From positions 1 through 47,936 of the forward strand of contig JAYELD010000020.1 in the NCBI GenBank assembly GCA_034717215.1: a DNA stretch of 47,936 bases, written 5' to 3'. This DNA comes from Caldisericota bacterium (lineage in GTDB: Bacteria; Caldisericota; Caldisericia; Caldisericales; Caldisericaceae). Below are positions 21,264-30,195 of the stretch, in pieces. How positions within the stretch are numbered: the first letter of the stretch is position 1; the number at the start of each line of letters is the position of its first letter. The notes beneath the pieces were generated by a model. It was not told the DNA's origin. It made no database searches and saw only the letters and a program-made list of their open reading frames with translations. Position numbers and translations under genes: made by a program.

Positions 21264-21857
21264 ATGAAGGACTTATCTTTAAAGCAATGGATTAGTGTAG
21301 TTGTTTTGGTGGGTGTTGTTATGCTAGGGATAGGAATGGTTATTGGAAAAAACTTTGTAGAGACGGAGGTAGTGCCTTCTGAGCAAGTAGTAATTGAAAA
21401 TTCGGAAGAACCTATTTATATTACCAGTTATGTAGTGGGTGCAGTTAATAATCCTGATGTATATGAGCTTCCTATAAACAGCATCGTAAAAGATGCAATA
21501 GAAAAAGCTGGTGGTCCCACAGAAGATGCAGATCTTGTCGCGATAAACCTTGCAAGAAAAGTGAAAGATGGAGAAGAAATTATTGTACCGGCTAAACAAG
21601 TATTTCTATCAGATTCAAACGATTCAGGCAATTTGAATAGCACTGTAGGCACAAACAGTAGCGGAAAGATAAATATTAACACTGCCTCAGCTAAGGAACT
21701 CGAGGCATTACCTGGAATCGGAGAAGTAAAATCTAAGGCCATTGTTCAGTACAGGAAAGATTATGGTTTGTTCAGAGATATTAGAGATATTATGAATGTT
21801 TCAGGTATTGGCGAGATAACATTTGAAAATATAAAGGACCTCATAGTCATTCCTTAA
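21264..21857 (+). CDS. comEA: ComEA-type DNA-binding competence protein
   Basis: A 197-residue membrane-anchored DNA receptor for natural transformation. One transmembrane helix (about 9-29) leads to an extracytoplasmic SLBB domain (about 50-115, with YVVGAVNNPDVYELP and GGPTEDADL), a short serine/asparagine linker, and a C-terminal helix-hairpin-helix domain (about 130-197, with INTASAKELEALPGIGEVKSKAIVQYR and VSGIGEITFENIKDLI). This matches Bacillus ComEA. Its stop overlaps the ATG of comEC (TAATG), so the two are coupled. The promoter and AGGAGG site are clear. DNA binding occurs outside the membrane, delivering DNA to the ComEC pore. Confidence 0.93.
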   Translation: MKDLSLKQWISVVVLVGVVMLGIGMVIGKNFVETEVVPSEQVVIENSEEPIYITSYVVGAVNNPDVYELPINSIVKDAIEKAGGPTEDADLVAINLARKVKDGEEIIVPAKQVFLSDSNDSGNLNSTVGTNSSGKININTASAKELEALPGIGEVKSKAIVQYRKDYGLFRDIRDIMNVSGIGEITFENIKDLIVIP

Positions 21858-23851
21858 TGCCTGCGTTATTTGCTTTACTTGGAGAGATTGCGGGTATTTT
21901 TTCATTATTTTCTATTTTTAATAGAAATTTTCTTGTTCTATGTATTATTTTTTTGTTTGTATTACTACTTTTGCTGCTTGTTGATAAGCGGTACTATATT
22001 TATATTATTCTTTTCTTTATCTTGGGTGTTTTCACAACGACTCTAGCTGTAACTCCCTTTAAAAATCCTGAAATCCCAGAACATCTATGTGGTGTGGAAA
22101 TTCAGATTACAGGAAAGGTTAAAGAATTTTCTAAAGGGACGGGCTATACAAAGAATTTTGAAATCTCACATTTATCTATAGAGGGAGAAAAATTTGCAGG
22201 CAGCGCAAGAGTGTATGCAGAAACAGCTCCTGCGCCTTTCAGTACTGTGGTTGTAAAAGGAGTTATTTCTAAAAACAGCTCTCAGGATGATTTTCAAAAA
22301 ATTACAAGGTATAATTGTACAGTTTTTAGTGAAGACGTGTCTGTGACCCGGAGTTTTGCTCTTTTCGATTTTTTTACTGACCTTAGAAATACGATAGAGG
22401 ATAGAATACTTCTCTCTATGAAAAGTGAAGAAGCTTTTCTCTTTCTTTCATCAATACCTGGCATTTCTTCGATGACGAGTGACGAAAAATTGCCATTTAT
22501 AGAGACAGGCACTGCACACCTTTTCGCTATATCGGGACTCCACTTCGGGATTTTGGGAGAGACTTCTTATAAAACTTTAGCCTTGTTTACCCCATTTGCT
22601 TATGAGTTTTCGTTTGTGATACTTGCTTTTTTTCTTTTTCTTGTCGGATTCAGGGTTTCTGCCCTCCGTGCGTTTTTTATGTACGGTGCTTGTGTGCTTG
22701 CTAAAGCGACCGGGAAAGAACTTATACCGCTTAATACGCTTTCTTTTGCAGCACTTATTATACTTCTTGCCAATCCACTTGCTCTTTTTTCGGTGAGTTT
22801 CCAGCTATCATTTCTTGCTATTTTTGCCATTTTAATTATTGCACCACTCTTTTATCAGCGTCTTCCGCAAAATTTCGGCTTTAAAATGCTTGCAGAAGTG
22901 GTTTCTGTTCAGCTCCTACTTTTTCCTCTTTTTGCTTATTATTTTCATACTGTTTCACTTATTGCAATTATGGCAAATTTTATTGTAATTCCATTTTTGT
23001 ATCTCCTTATGCCTATTAGTTTAATACAACTTGTTCTAACTGTAATAAGTTTTCGGTTAGCACTGTTTTTCGCTCCTGTAACAAATTTCTTTTTTTCTAT
23101 TCTTATTTTTCTGGCAAAAATGTTTTCAAAAGCACCCTTTGCAGCATTAAATATACAGTTTAATGGGTATTTTGTGGTAACATATTTTATCGTTATTTCT
23201 CTTCTTATTTTTTCTTATACTAAAAAAAAGACGTGGAGAAAGCTTGTTTTTATTCCGCTCATTTTATTAGTAGCTGCTTCCATTTTTGTAAGACCCGGGT
23301 TCTGTATTACACCACTTCAACTTGTTGGCGAAGATGGTTTTATTGTTCAATCTGGTTACGATGTTGTATATATAAGCTCTCCAACCTGTTTGACAAGTGA
23401 AGATAAAGATTTATATTCTATACAGCTTTCGTTGAAGGAGAGGGGCATAAACAAAATTGATCTTATGATTTTTAATGCGCCGTTTAAGCAAAGAGAGGCT
23501 AGTAGTGTTAAACTTATAGAACAATTTTCCGTAAAAAGTGTTGTTCTCCCCAAAATTGAAAGCGATCTTCAAAATGCTTTTATTACTCTAAATGCTGGTA
23601 AAACTCAGATATATACAGTTTCGGATACTGACAAAATTCATTTTGGGGATATGATTTTTAGGTTTGTCCCAGGCGTAAGCGATGCTTATTCTGTAATCTT
23701 GGAACATGAAGGACGAACATTTTTACTGGCGGGCAGACAGTTTAAACTTGATAATTTACCCTTTCATGTCGATGTGGCATATTTTCCCCAAAACTTATTA
23801 GAAAAGTTAAAAAATGCTCAGTTAAGATTTGGAGAAATCCATGGGTATTAA
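21857..23851 (+). CDS. comEC: ComEC/Rec2 DNA-uptake channel with degenerate metallo-beta-lactamase domain
   Basis: A 664-residue polytopic protein. After N-terminal helices comes an OB-like extracytoplasmic domain (about 70-165, DUF4131-type). The Competence domain follows, with HLFAISGLHFGILG (about 218-231) and many helices to about 475. The C-terminal ~185 residues align in order with the beta-lactamase-like domain of ComEC, but the zinc motif is gone. Where HxHxDH is expected the sequence reads NAPFKQRE, the later GD is AGR, and no HHG is seen. In full-length ComEC this domain is proposed to degrade the non-transforming strand. Uptake may need another nuclease here. The start overlaps comEA. 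Confidence 0.92.
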   Translation: MPALFALLGEIAGIFSLFSIFNRNFLVLCIIFLFVLLLLLLVDKRYYIYIILFFILGVFTTTLAVTPFKNPEIPEHLCGVEIQITGKVKEFSKGTGYTKNFEISHLSIEGEKFAGSARVYAETAPAPFSTVVVKGVISKNSSQDDFQKITRYNCTVFSEDVSVTRSFALFDFFTDLRNTIEDRILLSMKSEEAFLFLSSIPGISSMTSDEKLPFIETGTAHLFAISGLHFGILGETSYKTLALFTPFAYEFSFVILAFFLFLVGFRVSALRAFFMYGACVLAKATGKELIPLNTLSFAALIILLANPLALFSVSFQLSFLAIFAILIIAPLFYQRLPQNFGFKMLAEVVSVQLLLFPLFAYYFHTVSLIAIMANFIVIPFLYLLMPISLIQLVLTVISFRLALFFAPVTNFFFSILIFLAKMFSKAPFAALNIQFNGYFVVTYFIVISLLIFSYTKKKTWRKLVFIPLILLVAASIFVRPGFCITPLQLVGEDGFIVQSGYDVVYISSPTCLTSEDKDLYSIQLSLKERGINKIDLMIFNAPFKQREASSVKLIEQFSVKSVVLPKIESDLQNAFITLNAGKTQIYTVSDTDKIHFGDMIFRFVPGVSDAYSVILEHEGRTFLLAGRQFKLDNLPFHVDVAYFPQNLLEKLKNAQLRFGEIHGY

Positions 23852-23864: not shown

Positions 23865-23870
23865 AAAGGG
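23865..23870 (+). promoter_or_regulatory. Ribosome binding site fixing the polA start
   Basis: AAAGGG lies eight bases before ATG 23879. Its last base is also the G of an in-frame GTG at 23870, which is therefore unlikely to be the start. Confidence 0.6.
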
Positions 23871-23878
23871 TGACGCAT

Positions 23879-26383
23879 ATGAAAAAATTAGTGCTAATAG
23901 ACGGGAGCAGTATTATGTATAGAGCTTTTTTTGCTCTTCCTCATTTTACTACAAAAAACAATGAACCTACAGGGGCCCTGTATGGTTTTATTAGAATGCT
24001 TTTACGTGTTTTAAAGGACGAAAAACCTCAGTATCTAGCTATTGCATTTGATAGGAGAGCTCCTACAAAAAGGCATATACAGTATAAAGAGTATAAAGCA
24101 CAACGTCCTCCCATGCCAGACGAGTTGTCTCCTCAATTTACAACAATACATGAATTGCTTGAGGCATTGAATATTAATGTATATGAAATGGATGGATATG
24201 AAGCGGATGATATAATAGGAACGATAGCAAAAACTGCTGAAAAAAATGAATTTTTAACAGTTGTTATTTCTGGTGACATGGATCTCACGCAGCTTATATC
24301 AGAAAAGATTAAAATAAAGGTTACACGGAAAGGCGTTACAACCCTTGAGGAATTTGATAGAGAACGGCTTAAAGAAATATTAGGTATTTATCCTGAGCAA
24401 ATACCAGATTTTAAGGCTTTAACGGGAGATCCTTCTGATAATATTCCTGGTTTACCGGGTATAGGGCCAAAAACTGCAGCAAAACTTCTATCTGAGTATG
24501 GAAATATCGAGGAGTTGTTATTACATACTGGCGAGATTAAAAAAGGCGATCTTATTGAAAAATATAAAGATCGTCTAATTAGCGGAAAAGAATTGTGCAC
24601 ATTAATGTTTGATACACCGATAGAGTTTAATATTGATGAAATGAAGTTAGGTGGGTTTGATGAAGAAAAGTTGAAAAATATTTTAAGCCGCTTTGAATTT
24701 ACCAGTCTTTTAAACGAGCTTGGAATAAATTTGAATAATAAACACACACATATCAAAGCAGATGATCGAATAGGATTGTATATTGAGGCAAGGAATGGAC
24801 AAGTTCAGCATTTTGCTATGGCTACGGAGAAAAATGTGGAAGAATTTAACATTGGCGAAGAACTTTTTGCTAACACAGAGGCGCTAAAAATTTTGAAAGA
24901 TCTACTTGAAAATGACAAAAAGAAAGAAATTCTTAACTTAAAGGAACTTTACAAAGTAGCACACCATTATGGAATTAAACTCTCAAATATTCATCTTGAT
25001 TTGGCACTTGCAGGACATCTTCTTAATCCGGATATAAGAAATTACTCCATCAAAGAGTTATGCGATACATTTTCTGTTTTCTACGAAGGGGAGTCTTTGT
25101 CTGAATATGCTAAACAACTTTTGCAGCTTTCATATGTTGAAGACAAGGAGTTAGAAGAATATAATCTTATGGCACTTTACAATGATATAGAAAAACCGCT
25201 ATCAGAGATATTGGCTGACATGGAAATTACTGGTATAAAAATCGATGTGAAACATCTTGAGAATCTAAAAAGTGAGATTGAAAAAGAGCTTGAGATATTG
25301 GAAAATAAGATATATGACCTTTCCGGTATTTCTTTTAATATTAACTCTTCAAAACAACTTGCAGCTGTGCTTTTTGATAATTTAGGATTAAAACCATCAA
25401 AGATGGGAAAAACAGGATATTCAACGAGCAGTACAGTATTAGCAGATCTTATCTTGGAGCATCCTATAATTTCACTTGTACTAGAGTATAGAAGTCTTTC
25501 TAAATTGTATTCTGGATATGTTGTAGCCTTGCCTAAACTTGTGTCTAAAGAAGATTTTCGGTTACATACGACATTTCATCAGCTGGGTACAATTACGGGG
25601 AGGTTACGAAGTTCAAAACCAAATTTACAAAATATACCTATTAGGACTGACTGGGGCGAAAAGATACGAGCTGGTTTTGTTGCATCGGATGGGCATTTTT
25701 TGCTTAGTGCAGACTATTCGCAAATTGAGTTAAGAATACTCGCTCATCTATCTAAGGATAAAAACCTTATTAATGCATTTATGAATGGTGCTGATGTTCA
25801 TACACGCACTGCATCCCTTGTATTTAACGTAAAGGATGAGGAAGTTACAAAAGAAATGAGGAGAAGTGCTAAAATTCTTAATTTTGGAATTATATATGGA
25901 ATGTCTTCTTATGGTGTTGCAAAGCAGCTAGGCTGTTCTGCTAATGAAGCAAAAGAATACATTAATAGATATTTTGCCAGGTTCCCAACTGTTCGGGAAT
26001 TTTTAGAGGAGCTTGTAAGGAGTACGATAAAATCAGGCGAGGCAAGGACAATTTTCGGACGCAGAAGAAAAATTCCAGGTTTAAATAGTGGCTTCGGTAG
26101 ATCGAAGGATGAAGCAAGAAGATTTGCTATAAATACTCCTATTCAAGGAAGCGCTGCTGATATTATAAAAATTGCAATGCTAAAGGTGTTTAACAGGATA
26201 AAAGACAGTGGTGACCATATTGTATTGCAAATTCACGATGAATTAGTTCTCGAAGTAGGTAAAGAGCGAATTGAGAAAGTGAAACAAATTGTAAAAGAAG
26301 AAATGGAATCTGCTTATTCCCTTTCCGTGCCGTTAGTGGTGAATATTGCGTACGGGAATAATCTGAGAGAGGCAAAAGGATGA
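23879..26383 (+). CDS. polA: DNA polymerase I, without a functional 3'-5' exonuclease
   Basis: An 834-residue family A polymerase for gap filling and primer removal. The 5'-3' exonuclease domain (1-290) has LIDGSSIMYRAFFALP, EADDIIGTIA, SGDMDLTQL and the helix-hairpin-helix GLPGIGPKTAAKLL. The middle domain (about 295-420) keeps the fold but lacks the DxE and later Asp residues of a proofreading exonuclease. The polymerase domain has motif A DYSQIELR (Asp612), motif B RRSAKILNFGIIYGMSSYG and motif C HDE (786-788). ATG 23879 is chosen by its AAAGGG site. The gene overlaps coaE by four bases; polA-coaE is a common pairing. Loss of proofreading resembles Thermus and Bacillus enzymes. Confidence 0.96.
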   Translation: MKKLVLIDGSSIMYRAFFALPHFTTKNNEPTGALYGFIRMLLRVLKDEKPQYLAIAFDRRAPTKRHIQYKEYKAQRPPMPDELSPQFTTIHELLEALNINVYEMDGYEADDIIGTIAKTAEKNEFLTVVISGDMDLTQLISEKIKIKVTRKGVTTLEEFDRERLKEILGIYPEQIPDFKALTGDPSDNIPGLPGIGPKTAAKLLSEYGNIEELLLHTGEIKKGDLIEKYKDRLISGKELCTLMFDTPIEFNIDEMKLGGFDEEKLKNILSRFEFTSLLNELGINLNNKHTHIKADDRIGLYIEARNGQVQHFAMATEKNVEEFNIGEELFANTEALKILKDLLENDKKKEILNLKELYKVAHHYGIKLSNIHLDLALAGHLLNPDIRNYSIKELCDTFSVFYEGESLSEYAKQLLQLSYVEDKELEEYNLMALYNDIEKPLSEILADMEITGIKIDVKHLENLKSEIEKELEILENKIYDLSGISFNINSSKQLAAVLFDNLGLKPSKMGKTGYSTSSTVLADLILEHPIISLVLEYRSLSKLYSGYVVALPKLVSKEDFRLHTTFHQLGTITGRLRSSKPNLQNIPIRTDWGEKIRAGFVASDGHFLLSADYSQIELRILAHLSKDKNLINAFMNGADVHTRTASLVFNVKDEEVTKEMRRSAKILNFGIIYGMSSYGVAKQLGCSANEAKEYINRYFARFPTVREFLEELVRSTIKSGEARTIFGRRRKIPGLNSGFGRSKDEARRFAINTPIQGSAADIIKIAMLKVFNRIKDSGDHIVLQIHDELVLEVGKERIEKVKQIVKEEMESAYSLSVPLVVNIAYGNNLREAKG

Positions 26384-26979
26384 TTGTAATTGGGCTTACA
26401 GGCAATATTGCGTCTGGAAAAAGTGCTGTATCCAAATTCTTAAAGAAATTGAGTGCCGATATTGTTGATTTGGACCAGCTTGCCAAGAAAATTCAATCTC
26501 AAAATGTTAATGACATTGTAGACAAGATGGAAAAGGTTTTTGGAAAAGAAATTGTTTCAAATGGCAAAGTAAACAGAAAAAAATTGGGCAGTATTGTTTT
26601 TTCAGATAAAGAGAAGTTAAATAAGCTTAATGAGATTATGATACCCGTAATGACTGAAGTTGTAAAGAAAATAATAGAGAAAAAGCGAGTGTCAGGGACG
26701 AAGGTTCTTGTTGTTGATGCAGCAATTCTGTTTGAGGCAAACTGGGATAAGATTGTTGACACTGTCTGGGTTGTCTATATCCCCAAAAAGTTGCAGCTGG
26801 AAAGATTAATGAAAAGAGAAAATATTAGAAGGGAAGAGGCATTAATGAGGATAGATTCACAAATGCCCATTTCTGAAAAGATTAAAATGGCTGATGTGGT
26901 AATTGACAATAGTGGGGATTTTTCGCAGATGGAATCCCAAATTTTAGAGTTATGGAAGAAAATTCAGAATTCCATTTAA
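26380..26979 (+). CDS. coaE: Dephospho-CoA kinase
   Basis: Phosphorylates the 3'-hydroxyl of dephospho-CoA in the last step of coenzyme A synthesis. The 199-residue protein has the P-loop GLTGNIASGKS at residues 5-15, the acidic DLDQLAKKI segment, VVDAAILFEANWD (usual VDVPLLFE-type block) and WVVYIPKKLQLERLMKRENI with the lid arginines. ATG 26380 overlaps the polA stop (ATGA). The 3' end overlaps the following nuclease gene by 28 bases. Length and motifs are ordinary. Confidence 0.94.
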   Translation: MIVIGLTGNIASGKSAVSKFLKKLSADIVDLDQLAKKIQSQNVNDIVDKMEKVFGKEIVSNGKVNRKKLGSIVFSDKEKLNKLNEIMIPVMTEVVKKIIEKKRVSGTKVLVVDAAILFEANWDKIVDTVWVVYIPKKLQLERLMKRENIRREEALMRIDSQMPISEKIKMADVVIDNSGDFSQMESQILELWKKIQNSI

Positions 26980-27695
26980 GTTATTCAAGAATATCTATAT
27001 ATGATAATTGCCCTCTCCGTTATAAATTTATCTATGTTGATAAATTGCCTACTGCGGCACGTAGTTATTTTAGTTTTGGTAATTCGATTCATAAGGTGCT
27101 TGAACTTTTTTATCATCCCGAAGAAAATTTTATAACAGCTAAAACCCCTCCTTTAAATTATTTATTGAACCTGCTGGATGAACACTGGATTTCTGCTGGA
27201 TATAATACTGAATATCAGGAAAACAAGGCAAAAGATGAAGCAACGCAGCTTCTCACAAAATTTTACAGGGAAACGATATTTGGATTCCAACCGGCATATC
27301 TGGTTGAGAAGAGTTTCTCTTTTGAATTGAATGGGTTCAGAGTAATTGGGAGAATAGATCGAATAGATCGAGAAAATGATGGTTATAGTATCATTGATTA
27401 TAAAACAAATAGAATCTTGCCATCTTTGTTTAAAAAAATAAATCTCTTACAGCCAGTTATTTATTATTTAGGCGCGAAGGAATCTTTAGGCCTAAATAAA
27501 ATAAGCTCTATTTTCATGTATTTTGTGCGTTTTAACAAAAAAGTAGAATTTAATATCTCAGATAAAATGGCAGAAGAGGGGAAGCAGAAAATCCTGCAAG
27601 TCGGAAAAGCAATACAATGCAATGAATTTTCTCCAAAACCAGGCAGTGCGTGTTCTACATGTGAGTTTAAAGACAGATGCGCTGGTTTTCAGTAA
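26952..27695 (+). CDS. RecB-like PD-(D/E)XK nuclease with Fe-S type cysteines
   Basis: A 247-residue single-domain protein of the PD-(D/E)XK superfamily (RecB-nuclease/Cas4/AddB-like). It begins LSYSRISIYDNCPLRYKF, the box of AddB-like enzymes, with Cys20. Then follow GNSIHKVLE (His47), a Glu in VEKSFSF, GRIDRID, and the catalytic IIDYKTN with Asp-Tyr-Lys. The C-terminus holds Cys234, Cys237 and Cys243 (CSTCEFKDRC). With Cys20 these can form the [4Fe-4S] cluster that clamps such nucleases. No helicase domain is fused and no CRISPR genes are nearby, so this is a solo repair-type exonuclease candidate. It overlaps coaE by 28 bases and ends the polA run. Exact role unknown. Confidence 0.87.
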   Translation: MEENSEFHLSYSRISIYDNCPLRYKFIYVDKLPTAARSYFSFGNSIHKVLELFYHPEENFITAKTPPLNYLLNLLDEHWISAGYNTEYQENKAKDEATQLLTKFYRETIFGFQPAYLVEKSFSFELNGFRVIGRIDRIDRENDGYSIIDYKTNRILPSLFKKINLLQPVIYYLGAKESLGLNKISSIFMYFVRFNKKVEFNISDKMAEEGKQKILQVGKAIQCNEFSPKPGSACSTCEFKDRCAGFQ

Positions 27696-27774: not shown

Positions 27775-29391
27775 ATGAAAAAATTTTTTATCTTTGTTAT
27801 TATATTTATAATATTACTTAATATAATTCCTGCAGCACATGGAGAAAGTGATTCTTTGCGATTGTTAAGCCTGCTTCCTTACCAAATTACTTCTATCCAT
27901 ACCGATGGTTCTTTGATACTTGCTGGTACATTAAATGGTTTTTTTGTTTCTACTGATTCAGGCAGTCATTTTTCTGAGCGTGATACTGGTTTGTCTGATT
28001 TGCACATCACCGGAATTGCTTTTTTTGATGGAAATATTTTTTTAGGCACAGAGAATGCAGGAGCATATATTTCATACGATTTGGGCAAACACTGGGAATC
28101 ACTGATGAACAAATTGGATTGTCCTACTATTTCTTCCATATCAAGCGATGAAAATTTAATTTATGTCACATCACTTTGTTCTGGTTTTTATATAAGCAGC
28201 GATAGTGGACAAACCTGGGTTAAACGAAATAATGGCCTTCCCACCGTAGAAACTACCTCTTTTGTTAAAATATCTTCAGAAAAATATTTTCTTGGGACCA
28301 GGCAATTTGGGTTGTTTTATTCTAATACCGTAGGAGATGAATGTAGTTGGAAGAATGTGTTGACGGATTATTCAATCACTTCTCTTAGTTATCTTGGGAA
28401 TTACCTTTTTGTTGGCACAACAGAGGGATTTTTTAAAGGCAATATAGAGAATAATAATTTCCAGAAAATTCAGTTTATTGGAGGATCTCCTTACGTTTCT
28501 TATGTGGCAAAGACAGATAATAAAATTTTTGTAGCTTTTCTGTATTTTGGACTATTTGGGTCGGTTGATGGCAGCAATTTTTATAAGGTAGGTGGGGGCG
28601 TGGTGCCAAATCCTGATGCATTGTTTTTTGATTCCAAAAACAATGCTCTTTTTATAGGAGATGTAGATGGTAATCTTTTCTACTTTGACACAACTCGGCC
28701 ATATTTGCAATGCAGTGAGCAGATTGATGTTGGAAGTGTTCCACAGGGAAGCAGTGTTGAGAAAGACATTTTTCTTGTAAATCTTGGGGGAGGGATTCTC
28801 AAGGGAACAGTTAGTGGGCCATACTTCATAAAGTTTGATACTAATTCGTTTACAGCTGCAGGTAAATTACATTTTTTGATTGATACTTCTGCTCTTTCCA
28901 TTGGTAGTTTTAAGCAGCCAGTAAGCATTAATTCTAACGGCGGAAATAAAACGGTTTACATTTCCTTTAAAGTTATCCAGGCTCCCGCTATTAATATAAA
29001 GTTAAAGATAGATTCTCCAATTGCGTATGTTAATGGGAAAAGAGTAGATCTTGATGCGGCTCCTTTTATTGTGAAAGAGGCAAGTAGGACGCTTGTTCCT
29101 ATCCGTTTTATTTCAGAGACGTTTGGCGCAACGGTCGAGTGGGACGGCAATGAAAGAAAAGTTACTATTAAGAAGAGTGCAACTACACATCACCCTTCTC
29201 TACTCATTGAAATGTGGATTGATCGCAAAACTCTCCGTGTAAATTTAGAAGAAAAGACAATTGATGTTGCACCACTCATTATTCTTCCTGGCAGAACAAT
29301 GGTACCAATTCGGTTCATCACTGAAACTTTTGGAAGTACTGTGCAATGGAATGGCAACACGCGTGAAATTACTATCTATTATACACCTTAG
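27775..29391 (+). CDS. Secreted beta-propeller protein with C-terminal stalk (copper amine oxidase N-terminal-like) domain
   Basis: A 538-residue exported protein of unknown function. Residues 1-23 form a signal peptide (MKKFFIFVIIFIILLNIIPAAHG). Residues ~30-310 are BNR/Asp-box-like propeller blades (GFFVSTDSGSHF, AYISYDLGKHWESL, YISSDSGQTWVKRNNG). Residues ~315-405 look like an immunoglobulin-like beta sandwich. Residues ~415-538 are a stalk domain in two halves, marked by RTLVPIRFISETFGATVEW and RTMVPIRFITETFGSTVQW, a module widespread in envelope proteins of anaerobic thermophiles despite its copper amine oxidase name. AGGAGG precedes the ATG. It is transcribed separately from the nuclease upstream. 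A surface-binding or adhesin-like role is likely; no catalytic residues are evident. Confidence 0.82.
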   Translation: MKKFFIFVIIFIILLNIIPAAHGESDSLRLLSLLPYQITSIHTDGSLILAGTLNGFFVSTDSGSHFSERDTGLSDLHITGIAFFDGNIFLGTENAGAYISYDLGKHWESLMNKLDCPTISSISSDENLIYVTSLCSGFYISSDSGQTWVKRNNGLPTVETTSFVKISSEKYFLGTRQFGLFYSNTVGDECSWKNVLTDYSITSLSYLGNYLFVGTTEGFFKGNIENNNFQKIQFIGGSPYVSYVAKTDNKIFVAFLYFGLFGSVDGSNFYKVGGGVVPNPDALFFDSKNNALFIGDVDGNLFYFDTTRPYLQCSEQIDVGSVPQGSSVEKDIFLVNLGGGILKGTVSGPYFIKFDTNSFTAAGKLHFLIDTSALSIGSFKQPVSINSNGGNKTVYISFKVIQAPAINIKLKIDSPIAYVNGKRVDLDAAPFIVKEASRTLVPIRFISETFGATVEWDGNERKVTIKKSATTHHPSLLIEMWIDRKTLRVNLEEKTIDVAPLIILPGRTMVPIRFITETFGSTVQWNGNTREITIYYTP

Positions 29392-29472: not shown

Positions 29473-30195
29473 ATGGATAAGTTTAACGTGATTTTTTTAT
29501 TAGGGCGTCCGGCAGCTGGAAAATCAGAAATTATCAATTTTCTTTTAAAACTTCCAGACAGAACAAGAAAAGAACAGTTCTGTATGGGAAAAATTGATGT
29601 GATTGATGATTTCCCAATGCTTTGGACCTGGTACGAGGAGGATGACATCCTTGAAAGCAAATTTCATAAGCAAAGACTTCATACTACTGACGACGGGTAC
29701 TTTAAGCACCAATATTTCTGGCATCTCCTTATTGAAAGAATTTCTTTAGAATATAAAAAACGAATTCGGGATATTTCTGATTATACGAAAGACTATACTA
29801 CAATTGTAGAGTTTTCCAGAGGCAAAGAACATGGTGGTTACAAAAAGGCGTTTCAGCATGTTTCGGAAGAACTCCTTAAATATGCCGTTATCATATATGT
29901 GAATGTACCATTTGAAGAATCTTTAAGAAAAAATAAAATGCGGTTTGATCCATTGCGTCCCGATAGTATTCTCCATCATTCTTTAACAGATGAAAAACTA
30001 ACAAGACTTTATAAAGAAATTGATTGGGAAGAATTTAGCAGCGGAAATTCAGAATTTATTGAATGCAAGGGAATGAAAGTGCCGTATGCAATTTTTGAGA
30101 ATAAAGATGATGTGACCACAGAAGGGAATGATCCTTTAAAAAATAGACTTAAAGAAACTTTAGAAAAACTCAAAACAATTATTAAGAAGAAGTAG
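29473..30195 (+). CDS. Uncharacterised P-loop kinase-like protein
   Basis: A 240-residue cytoplasmic protein I cannot assign to a named family. It starts with a Walker A motif (FLLGRPAAGKSE, about 8-19) typical of nucleoside and small-molecule kinases. Later come the acidic segments VIDDFPMLWTWYEEDD and TIVEFSRGKEHGGYKKAF, a strand IIYVNVPFEESLRKNKMRFD resembling the Walker B/lid region of adenylate-kinase-like folds, and a charged C-terminal helix. It lies between the propeller gene and the convergent gmk gene, with only seven bases separating the stops. It has its own promoter. Nucleotide binding is likely; the acceptor substrate is unknown. An ATPase or GTPase role without kinase activity is also possible. 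Confidence 0.7.
   Translation: MDKFNVIFLLGRPAAGKSEIINFLLKLPDRTRKEQFCMGKIDVIDDFPMLWTWYEEDDILESKFHKQRLHTTDDGYFKHQYFWHLLIERISLEYKKRIRDISDYTKDYTTIVEFSRGKEHGGYKKAFQHVSEELLKYAVIIYVNVPFEESLRKNKMRFDPLRPDSILHHSLTDEKLTRLYKEIDWEEFSSGNSEFIECKGMKVPYAIFENKDDVTTEGNDPLKNRLKETLEKLKTIIKKK

Follow-up and report, generated by a model that had tools for sequence, protein, structure and literature searches.

The window analysed here, the whole contig JAYELD010000020.1 (47,936 nucleotides; labelled G000:C20, from the 1.49-Mb draft genome of a Caldisericota bacterium, assembly GCA_034717215.1), encodes a ComEC import channel, the C-terminal metallo-beta-lactamase (MBL) nuclease domain of which has probably lost its catalytic function while the fold was kept as a cap. 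Most simply this happened once, before the window's family (Caldisericaceae-type, here f1) and its sister family (f2) separated. As the gene content suggests, double-stranded DNA would reach ComEC via pili and ComEA, and one strand would pass the conserved pore, as expected from the protein family. ComEC itself would not cut any more, and the other strand would be removed by a separate extracytoplasmic nuclease or be displaced. Judged from selection and fold, the shortened MBL fold would serve structurally by capping the entrance to the pore, and some lineages would have shed it later. An initial annotation of this DNA had proposed that strand degradation is done by another nuclease or that the dead domain has become structural; both may apply together, because selection maintains the domain in the window's genus and the genomes also encode another nuclease-like family.

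According to the initial annotation, the HxHxDH motif of the domain is replaced by NAPFKQRE, GD is replaced by GR and HHG is absent. The strings on which this view was based (CITPLQLVGEDGFIVQS, then DLMIFN, which leads into the rest of NAPFKQRE at N540-E547, and FLLAGR, which ends at R627) and the replaced motifs were recovered in the window ComEC at the places given, and the alignment with an intact relative bears out all three replacements. In this alignment, the ligand positions of the H-x-D-x-D-H motif are occupied by A541, F543, Q545 and R546, the position of the bridging aspartate by R627 and the HH position by Q645-N646. The HHG position is followed by 18 residues in the window ComEC, compared to 68-91 in the aligned intact relatives from five related families (f3-f7); judged from this comparison, the end of the MBL fold is deleted in addition to the catalytic motifs. 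The Pfam model Lactamase_B did not match the window ComEC at E<=1, and the domain of an intact relative was assigned to Lactamase_B at 3.9e-12. The same degenerate state is found in four other genomes of the genus, with 85-89% protein identity, which excludes a sequencing error.

The AlphaFold2 model of the whole protein has a mean predicted local distance difference test score (pLDDT) of 82.8 (the five models span 56.7-82.8), and the underlying alignment contained 12 family members, none of them with an active site. A structural aligner returned as top match 9ic4, the ComEC MBL domain of Moorella glycerini, with Z 16.4, a root-mean-square deviation of 3.2 and 9% identity; the superposition comprises 184 residues and places model residues 479-664 on residues 532-748 of the chain, and the runner-up row has Z 14.4. 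Foldseek gave 23 matches at E<=0.001, which belong to proteins of the MBL fold; here 9ic4 ranks 25th with 1.1e-3. The full-length ComEC structures 9vc6 and 30bt match the window protein by sequence, yet they were not among the best 50 rows of the structural aligner for the whole model. Profile comparison leads to the same fold: a profile of the f1 domain aligned with a profile of ten intact MBL domains with an hhalign probability of 96.7 and a score of 71.7, whereas 20 column shuffles reached 23.2 at best and the reversed profile 15.2, and the alignment extends through the PHH position, where YFPQN faces KVPHH. Residues 479-664 of the window ComEC are thus predicted to fold as an MBL domain and not as an unrelated fold, with 9ic4 as the best match. 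The fold prediction, the shuffle-controlled profile comparison and the survey of relatives described below together support the idea that the conserved pore carries an MBL domain that is dead.

The shortening may affect more than the active site. In L. pneumophila ComEC, an essential loop 2 comprises residues 682-694, which is 20-32 residues after S662, and S662 corresponds to S728 of M. glycerini, according to the accessible excerpt of PMC12455585. The structural alignment with 9ic4 ends at its residue 748, and by residue offset loop 2 would lie just past the end of the window domain; hence the window ComEC seems to have lost the proposed strand-separating loop together with the cut site.

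The pore of the protein is conserved. The Pfam Competence model (PF03772) covers residues 205-455 with 151.5 bits against a cut-off of 23 (E 3.7e-44), and the core model TIGR00360 is passed with 99.4 bits against 36.5. The full-length ComEC_Rec2 equivalog model TIGR00361 stays below its cut-off (91.9 against 190.05 bits), so the window protein is filed as ComEC-related by its core and not as a canonical ComEC_Rec2. DUF4131 matches with E 2.4e-7 and 31.1 bits, marginally under the cut-off of 31.6, and the model has strands in this OB-fold region at residues 81-88, 99-108, 111-121, 130-139 and 154-165. In an alignment of 20 ComECs from three families (20 of 30 loci; L016, a truncated locus with an internal stop, was omitted, and L019-L022, L024, L026-L028 and L030 are also outside it), 16 columns between G135 and P379 are invariant. 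The pore domain, which the initial annotation had called intact, is conserved.

The dead state is not a peculiarity of one genus. ComEC was matched in 16 of the 18 f1 genomes, the two others being only 55-56% complete, and in all 15 of the 16 f1 proteins read that have a complete C-terminus motif II, GD and HHG are missing (the protein of genome G014 is cut before the domain). The sister family has a ComEC match in 13 of 15 genomes, and motif II and HHG are missing in 11/11 proteins with a complete C-terminus, G040 (no frame found) and G045 (cut by a contig end) being outside this count. The families f3-f7 have a match in 20 of 21 genomes, and all 18 proteins read keep motif II, HHG and GD (GAD in G020). 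G053 (no frame found) and G031 (contig-end cut) are not part of the motif counts, nor are G055 and G057 from outside the phylum, and the motif states of G025, G033, G037 and G049 were taken from the alignment. The survey of related genomes that had been suggested thus revealed a state that is family-wide in f1 and f2, with f3-f7 intact.

In an rpoB tree of 30 genomes, f1 and f2 are sisters with 100/100 support, so that one ancient inactivation suffices, and a single event before the f1/f2 split is the simplest reading; two separate inactivations in f1 and f2 are also conceivable. Several observations speak against a common origin or make it harder to assess. A direct comparison of the dead domains of f1 with those of f2 gave no match (hhalign probability 4.2), and a tree of the ComEC core groups f1 with f3 (84/89), although f1+f2 is not rejected there (approximately unbiased test, p 0.22). 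The model of the f2 domain is of low confidence (pLDDT 54) and too poor to be used, so the f2 fold rests on a profile match of 95 columns to the intact MBL domains, which has a probability of 80-83 and a score of 42.2 with 24.4 for the best shuffle.

ComECs lacking the motifs also occur elsewhere. Genome G060 from outside the phylum (locus L230) has a ComEC frame of 666 aa, the C-terminus of which is without motif II and HHG. Among 41 ComEC loci, which were picked by a pore pattern and hence are a biased sample, 28 are intact, five have a long C-terminus without the motifs, seven have a C-terminus that is too short (one of these is cut by a contig end) and one is unreadable. Four of the five long ones (L043, L044, L045 and L046, from metagenome-assembled genomes of Clostridia and Christensenellaceae) have a normally placed C-terminal domain without HxxxDH and HHG; their profile aligned with the intact MBL profile with a probability of 12 and a score of 28.7, the best of 20 shuffles reaching 16.4, which is suggestive only, and these are possibly independent dead MBL domains. 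L055, a Clostridia-type protein with a long C-terminus without the motifs, showed no similarity.

It has to be considered that the His/Asp site was exchanged for an acidic metal site formed by E492, E515, D518, E547 and D639, so that the domain would still be a nuclease. These five residues are conserved in 9-11 of 11 f1 sequences (E492 in 11/11; E515, D518 and D639 in 10/11 each), which would fit such a site. However, no conserved histidine is left in the f1 domain, and D639 aligns with an aspartate that is common in intact domains and thus may be structural. Moreover, the domain evolves faster than active ones, and relatives shrink or drop it. We consider such an acidic site quite improbable and think that the domain is probably dead.

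How strongly a dead domain is constrained can be estimated from the substitution pattern. In ten pairs of five genomes of the window's genus, the ratio of nonsynonymous to synonymous substitution rates is 0.177 (MBL domain), 0.139 (pore) and 0.187 (N-terminal part), from which it follows that the dead domain is not running free but is under purifying selection in this genus. Over larger distances it diverges more than active domains do: at 45-60% pore identity, the C-terminal domains share 36% identity in 36 f1 pairs compared to 56% in four intact pairs, and the median ratio of MBL to pore distance is 1.58 in f1 (55 pairs, without G007, G010 and G015), 1.70 in f2 (10 pairs) and 0.83 in intact ComECs (66 pairs), with the reservation that the pairs are not independent and that most intact pairs are very divergent. 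At 45-60% pore identity, the distance of the dead domain relative to the pore is 1.5- to 2-fold that of an active MBL. The f1 proteins also form a length series. They mostly have 658-670 aa, but in genus g7 G010 (608 aa) and G015 (600 aa) contain a ragged MBL remnant, and G007 of the same genus has lost the domain completely, leaving a ComEC of 466 aa with the opening of the polA frame no more than 15 bp away.

Faster evolution of the domain, the truncation in g7 and the loss in G007 would also be expected if the lineage had stopped transforming and comEC were decaying, with the dead domain as the first part to go, and the comEC gene of G014 (L016) fits this as well: it has one TGA inside the match and reaches the contig end, which may reflect decay, recoding or an assembly error. 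Nevertheless, the purifying selection on pore and dead domain in the window's genus speaks against such a decay, as do the open frames in 15 of the 16 f1 comEC genes read and the retention of DprA (17 of 18 f1 genomes) and of comF-type genes, for which 12 of 13 f1 genomes searched have a full-length match, none over the strict cut-off of the model. PilT is over its cut-off in 8 of these 13 genomes. We regard an abandoned uptake system as unlikely and prefer a channel that is still maintained with a non-catalytic domain. A nuclease-dead ComEC of B. subtilis still permits transformation at a 10- to 100-fold lower level, as described in the available part of PMC8579336, but there are also findings that weigh against our reading. 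No PilT match was obtained in the window's own draft genome. A study cited in the same part of PMC8579336 found that changing D573 alone abolishes transformation in B. subtilis, and catalytic as well as loop-2 mutants abolish it in L. pneumophila (PMC12455585, excerpt). In view of these mutants, the window ComEC may not serve transformation at all.

If the unwanted strand is degraded, another nuclease would be expected, and a separate MBL nuclease, NucA and EndA had been named as the ones to look for. No convincing candidate of these types was found in f1. The EndA family (PF01223) is absent from all 18 f1 genomes, and three of the 15 f2 genomes have a member; NucA (PF14040) had no match in any of 61 genomes, with a positive B. 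subtilis control. SNase matches were obtained in two of 18 f1 genomes, both below 30 bits though over the cut-off, and the match in G011 holds a stop. A query with the intact domain, which distant MBL proteins could escape, found no free ComEC-type MBL in the window's genome or in f2, and in f1 it found only three matches of about 20 bits (G005, G008 and G013).

The nuclease gene closest at hand encodes a PD-(D/E)XK protein (window positions 26952-27695), the gene of which is the third one after comEC in 10/10 f2 loci and in 10 of the 15 f1 loci fetched. That this protein replaces the MBL domain is nonetheless extremely improbable. Its N-terminus has no hydrophobic stretch, and the polA-coaE-PDDEXK cluster occurs without comEC in f3 (3/3), f4 (5/5) and f7 (4/4), where the ComECs read have an active MBL domain; conversely, all three members of genus g7 in f1 have the cluster away from comEC. 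As the cluster also exists without comEC in families with an active MBL, this candidate was rejected. In five f5 loci the PD-(D/E)XK match is a frame of 399-417 aa, with polA not nearby. A second, diverged PD-(D/E)XK gene is found three frames downstream of an intact comEC in G050 of f7 (L136).

A more promising lead comes from phospholipase D (PLD) proteins with two HKD motifs and hydrophobic N-termini, which could have replaced the nuclease in trans and which would refine our preferred explanation; their part would be that of EndA in S. pneumoniae or the one suggested for NucT of H. pylori. We consider this possible but not likely. A PLDc_2 search of the 61 genomes found frames of less than 520 aa that contain a pair of PLDc_2 stretches in 32 of the 33 genomes of both families, namely in 15/15 from f2 and in 17 of 18 from f1, where the exception, G001, has a fragment at a contig end. 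None of the matches listed for the 21 f3-f7 genomes is such a frame; among these matches (the weak ones of G050 and G052 are not listed) the genomes have none or single-stretch frames, most with 171-283 aa or about 900-1140 aa. All 18 PLD proteins read, from ten genomes, have two HKD motifs of the form HxK(x)4D and, by hydropathy count, a hydrophobic N-terminal stretch. They split (92/90) into a family A with an anchor-like N-terminus (10 proteins) and a family B with a signal-peptide-like one (8 proteins), both of which are represented in the window's genome outside the window (L203:3376-4386 for A, L204:306-1295 for B). The gene of family B follows a gene for a protein of 753-843 aa in 8/8 loci read.

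Among solved structures, family A is matched best by the Nuc endonuclease 1byr (3.3e-11), and both families match NucT (6ehi) and the exonucleases PLD3 and PLD4; NucT of H. pylori is a periplasmic, membrane-associated enzyme that prefers single-stranded DNA, according to the excerpted text of PMC5714352. By contrast, the best solved match of family B is the phospholipase 7e0m (4.2e-14), which also ranks second for A (5.6e-8), the NCBIfam cut-offs for NucT are missed (at best 83.8 bits against 211, for six proteins), and the models for DrmC and cardiolipin synthase match as well. No competence gene was recognised beside the PLD genes, G060 from outside the phylum combines a ComEC without MBL motifs with the absence of a PLDc_2 match, and nucT mutants of H. 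pylori have only a mild transformation defect (PMC5714352, same excerpt). It must also be kept in mind that the pattern emerged from the sixth nuclease query tried. As f1 and f2 form one clade, the co-occurrence of PLD proteins and dead domains amounts to a single event, which by itself is no proof but a lead. The most far-reaching scenario is that the nuclease step moved to membrane-anchored double-HKD PLD nucleases in the common ancestor of f1 and f2, as another solution next to EndA and the ComEC MBL, that the MBL fold became a capping pseudo-enzyme that was shortened and then lost, and that hidden, Pfam-negative pseudo-nucleases recur in other phyla, for example in Christensenellaceae-type Clostridia; taken as a whole, we consider this rather doubtful.

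The best named matches of the window ComEC come from Caldisericota metagenome-assembled genomes such as Caldiserica bacterium UBA646. The gene order in the window is dnaX-ebfC-recR-eno-comEA-comEC-polA-coaE-PDDEXK, where the proteins that we take to be DnaX, EbfC, RecR and enolase were named by reading the translations. The comEA gene is directly upstream of comEC and its stop overlaps comEC by one base; barring contig ends, comEA is 5' of comEC in the loci of f1, f2, f3, f5, f6 and f7, and it was not recognised before comEC in the f4 loci. The features of both genes are compiled in the table.

Table. Features of the comEA-comEC region of the window
Feature	Position	Strand	Basis
comEA, 197 aa, SLBB and helix-hairpin-helix DNA receptor	21264..21857	+	Pfam HHH_3 4e-20, SLBB 9.1e-18
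comEC, whole gene, 664 aa	21857..23851	+	open reading frame; Competence E 3.7e-44; TIGR00360 99.4 bits, cut-off 36.5
OB-fold (DUF4131) domain, about residues 76-167	22082..22357	+	DUF4131 31.1 bits, cut-off 31.6; model strands
Competence (pore) domain, residues 205-455, conserved	22469..23221	+	Pfam; invariant columns
Degenerate, shortened MBL-like domain, residues 479-664	23291..23848	+	predicted model; hhalign 96.7
GEDGF (G491-F495), family-specific replacement in the DVGQGD strand-turn	23327..23341	+	G491 and E492 invariant in 12 family sequences
NAPFKQRE (540-547) at the motif II HxDxDH site	23474..23497	+	alignment with intact relatives
G626-R627 at the metal-bridging Gly-Asp site	23732..23737	+	alignment with intact relatives
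P644-Q645-N646 at the PHH(G) site; 18 residues to protein end	23786..23794	+	alignment, hhalign

In the window, the polA-coaE-PD-(D/E)XK cluster occupies positions 23870-27695; the same cluster is present in f1, f2, f3, f4 and f7 and absent in the five f5 loci. A position of comEC directly before polA is found in 12 of 15 fetched f1 loci and 10/10 f2 loci, and in none of the 15 f3-f7 loci. The nuclease gene is followed by a gene (27775-29391) for a protein that has C-terminal copper-amine-oxidase-N stretches and matches Sortilin-Vps10 weakly; this gene comes after the nuclease gene in 5 of the 15 fetched f1 loci. Further downstream (29473-30195), a protein of 240 aa with a P-loop-like start (GRPAAGKS) and no Pfam match at 0.001 is encoded. 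Three further genomes of the genus have a homolog of this protein in the equivalent position, and in G012 a homolog is close to the polA-coaE-PD-(D/E)XK cluster.

Dead-MBL ComECs as a kind are already known. One close parallel is S. pneumoniae, where, according to the accessible portions of PMC5031224, PMC8579336 and PMC12455585, ComEC likewise kept an MBL domain despite substituted metal ligands and where strand removal is carried out by the separate membrane nuclease EndA. S. pneumoniae has EndA, and its ComEC has fewer substitutions, some of them conservative, whereas the window's family has lost all ligands as well as the end of the fold, and the EndA family had no match in its 18 genomes. 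Another parallel is H. pylori, which also lacks an active MBL domain and has a membrane-associated periplasmic nuclease of the PLD type in its genome (PMC5714352, PMC12455585; both in excerpt). Its ComEC differs in being without any MBL domain, as far as the excerpt of PMC12455585 goes, and the crystal structure of NucT consists of dimers of single-domain chains, whereas the Caldisericota PLD proteins have two HKD motifs and stay below the cut-off. With the active MBL domain of M. glycerini (9ic4), the window domain shares the predicted fold over 184 residues, but the identity is 9% and no catalytic residue is shared.

In the open-licence literature, no paper on ComEC or natural transformation of Caldisericum or Caldisericota was found, and nothing further of relevance to degenerate ComEC MBL domains, judged by title. 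As far as searched in that literature, neither the PLD candidate nor the graded decay has been published, and the same holds for the loss of all ligands with a retained fold in both f1 and f2. A survey of 4,935 ComEC proteins found Lactamase_B in 52.3% of them, as stated in the part of PMC6299819 available, and like nearly half of these the window ComEC has no Pfam Lactamase_B call. As the MBL fold of the window ComEC is predicted and yet invisible to Pfam, some of the domains that are called absent may be hidden dead ones; a Pfam result of "domain absent" can mean that a dead domain is present.

For bacteria without an MBL domain in ComEC, Silale et al. 2021 (PMC8579336, in the accessible part) described the removal of the non-imported strand as an open and interesting question. 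The clade described here is a natural experiment in this respect, as it offers an ancient loss, as inferred here, relatives in which the domain is active, a series of graded decay and a family that is a candidate for the replacement, and with G010 it includes a single-contig genome within the dead-MBL clade. If DNA uptake persists in this mostly uncultured lineage, the unwanted strand would be removed in a different way, perhaps by a different class of cell-surface nuclease.

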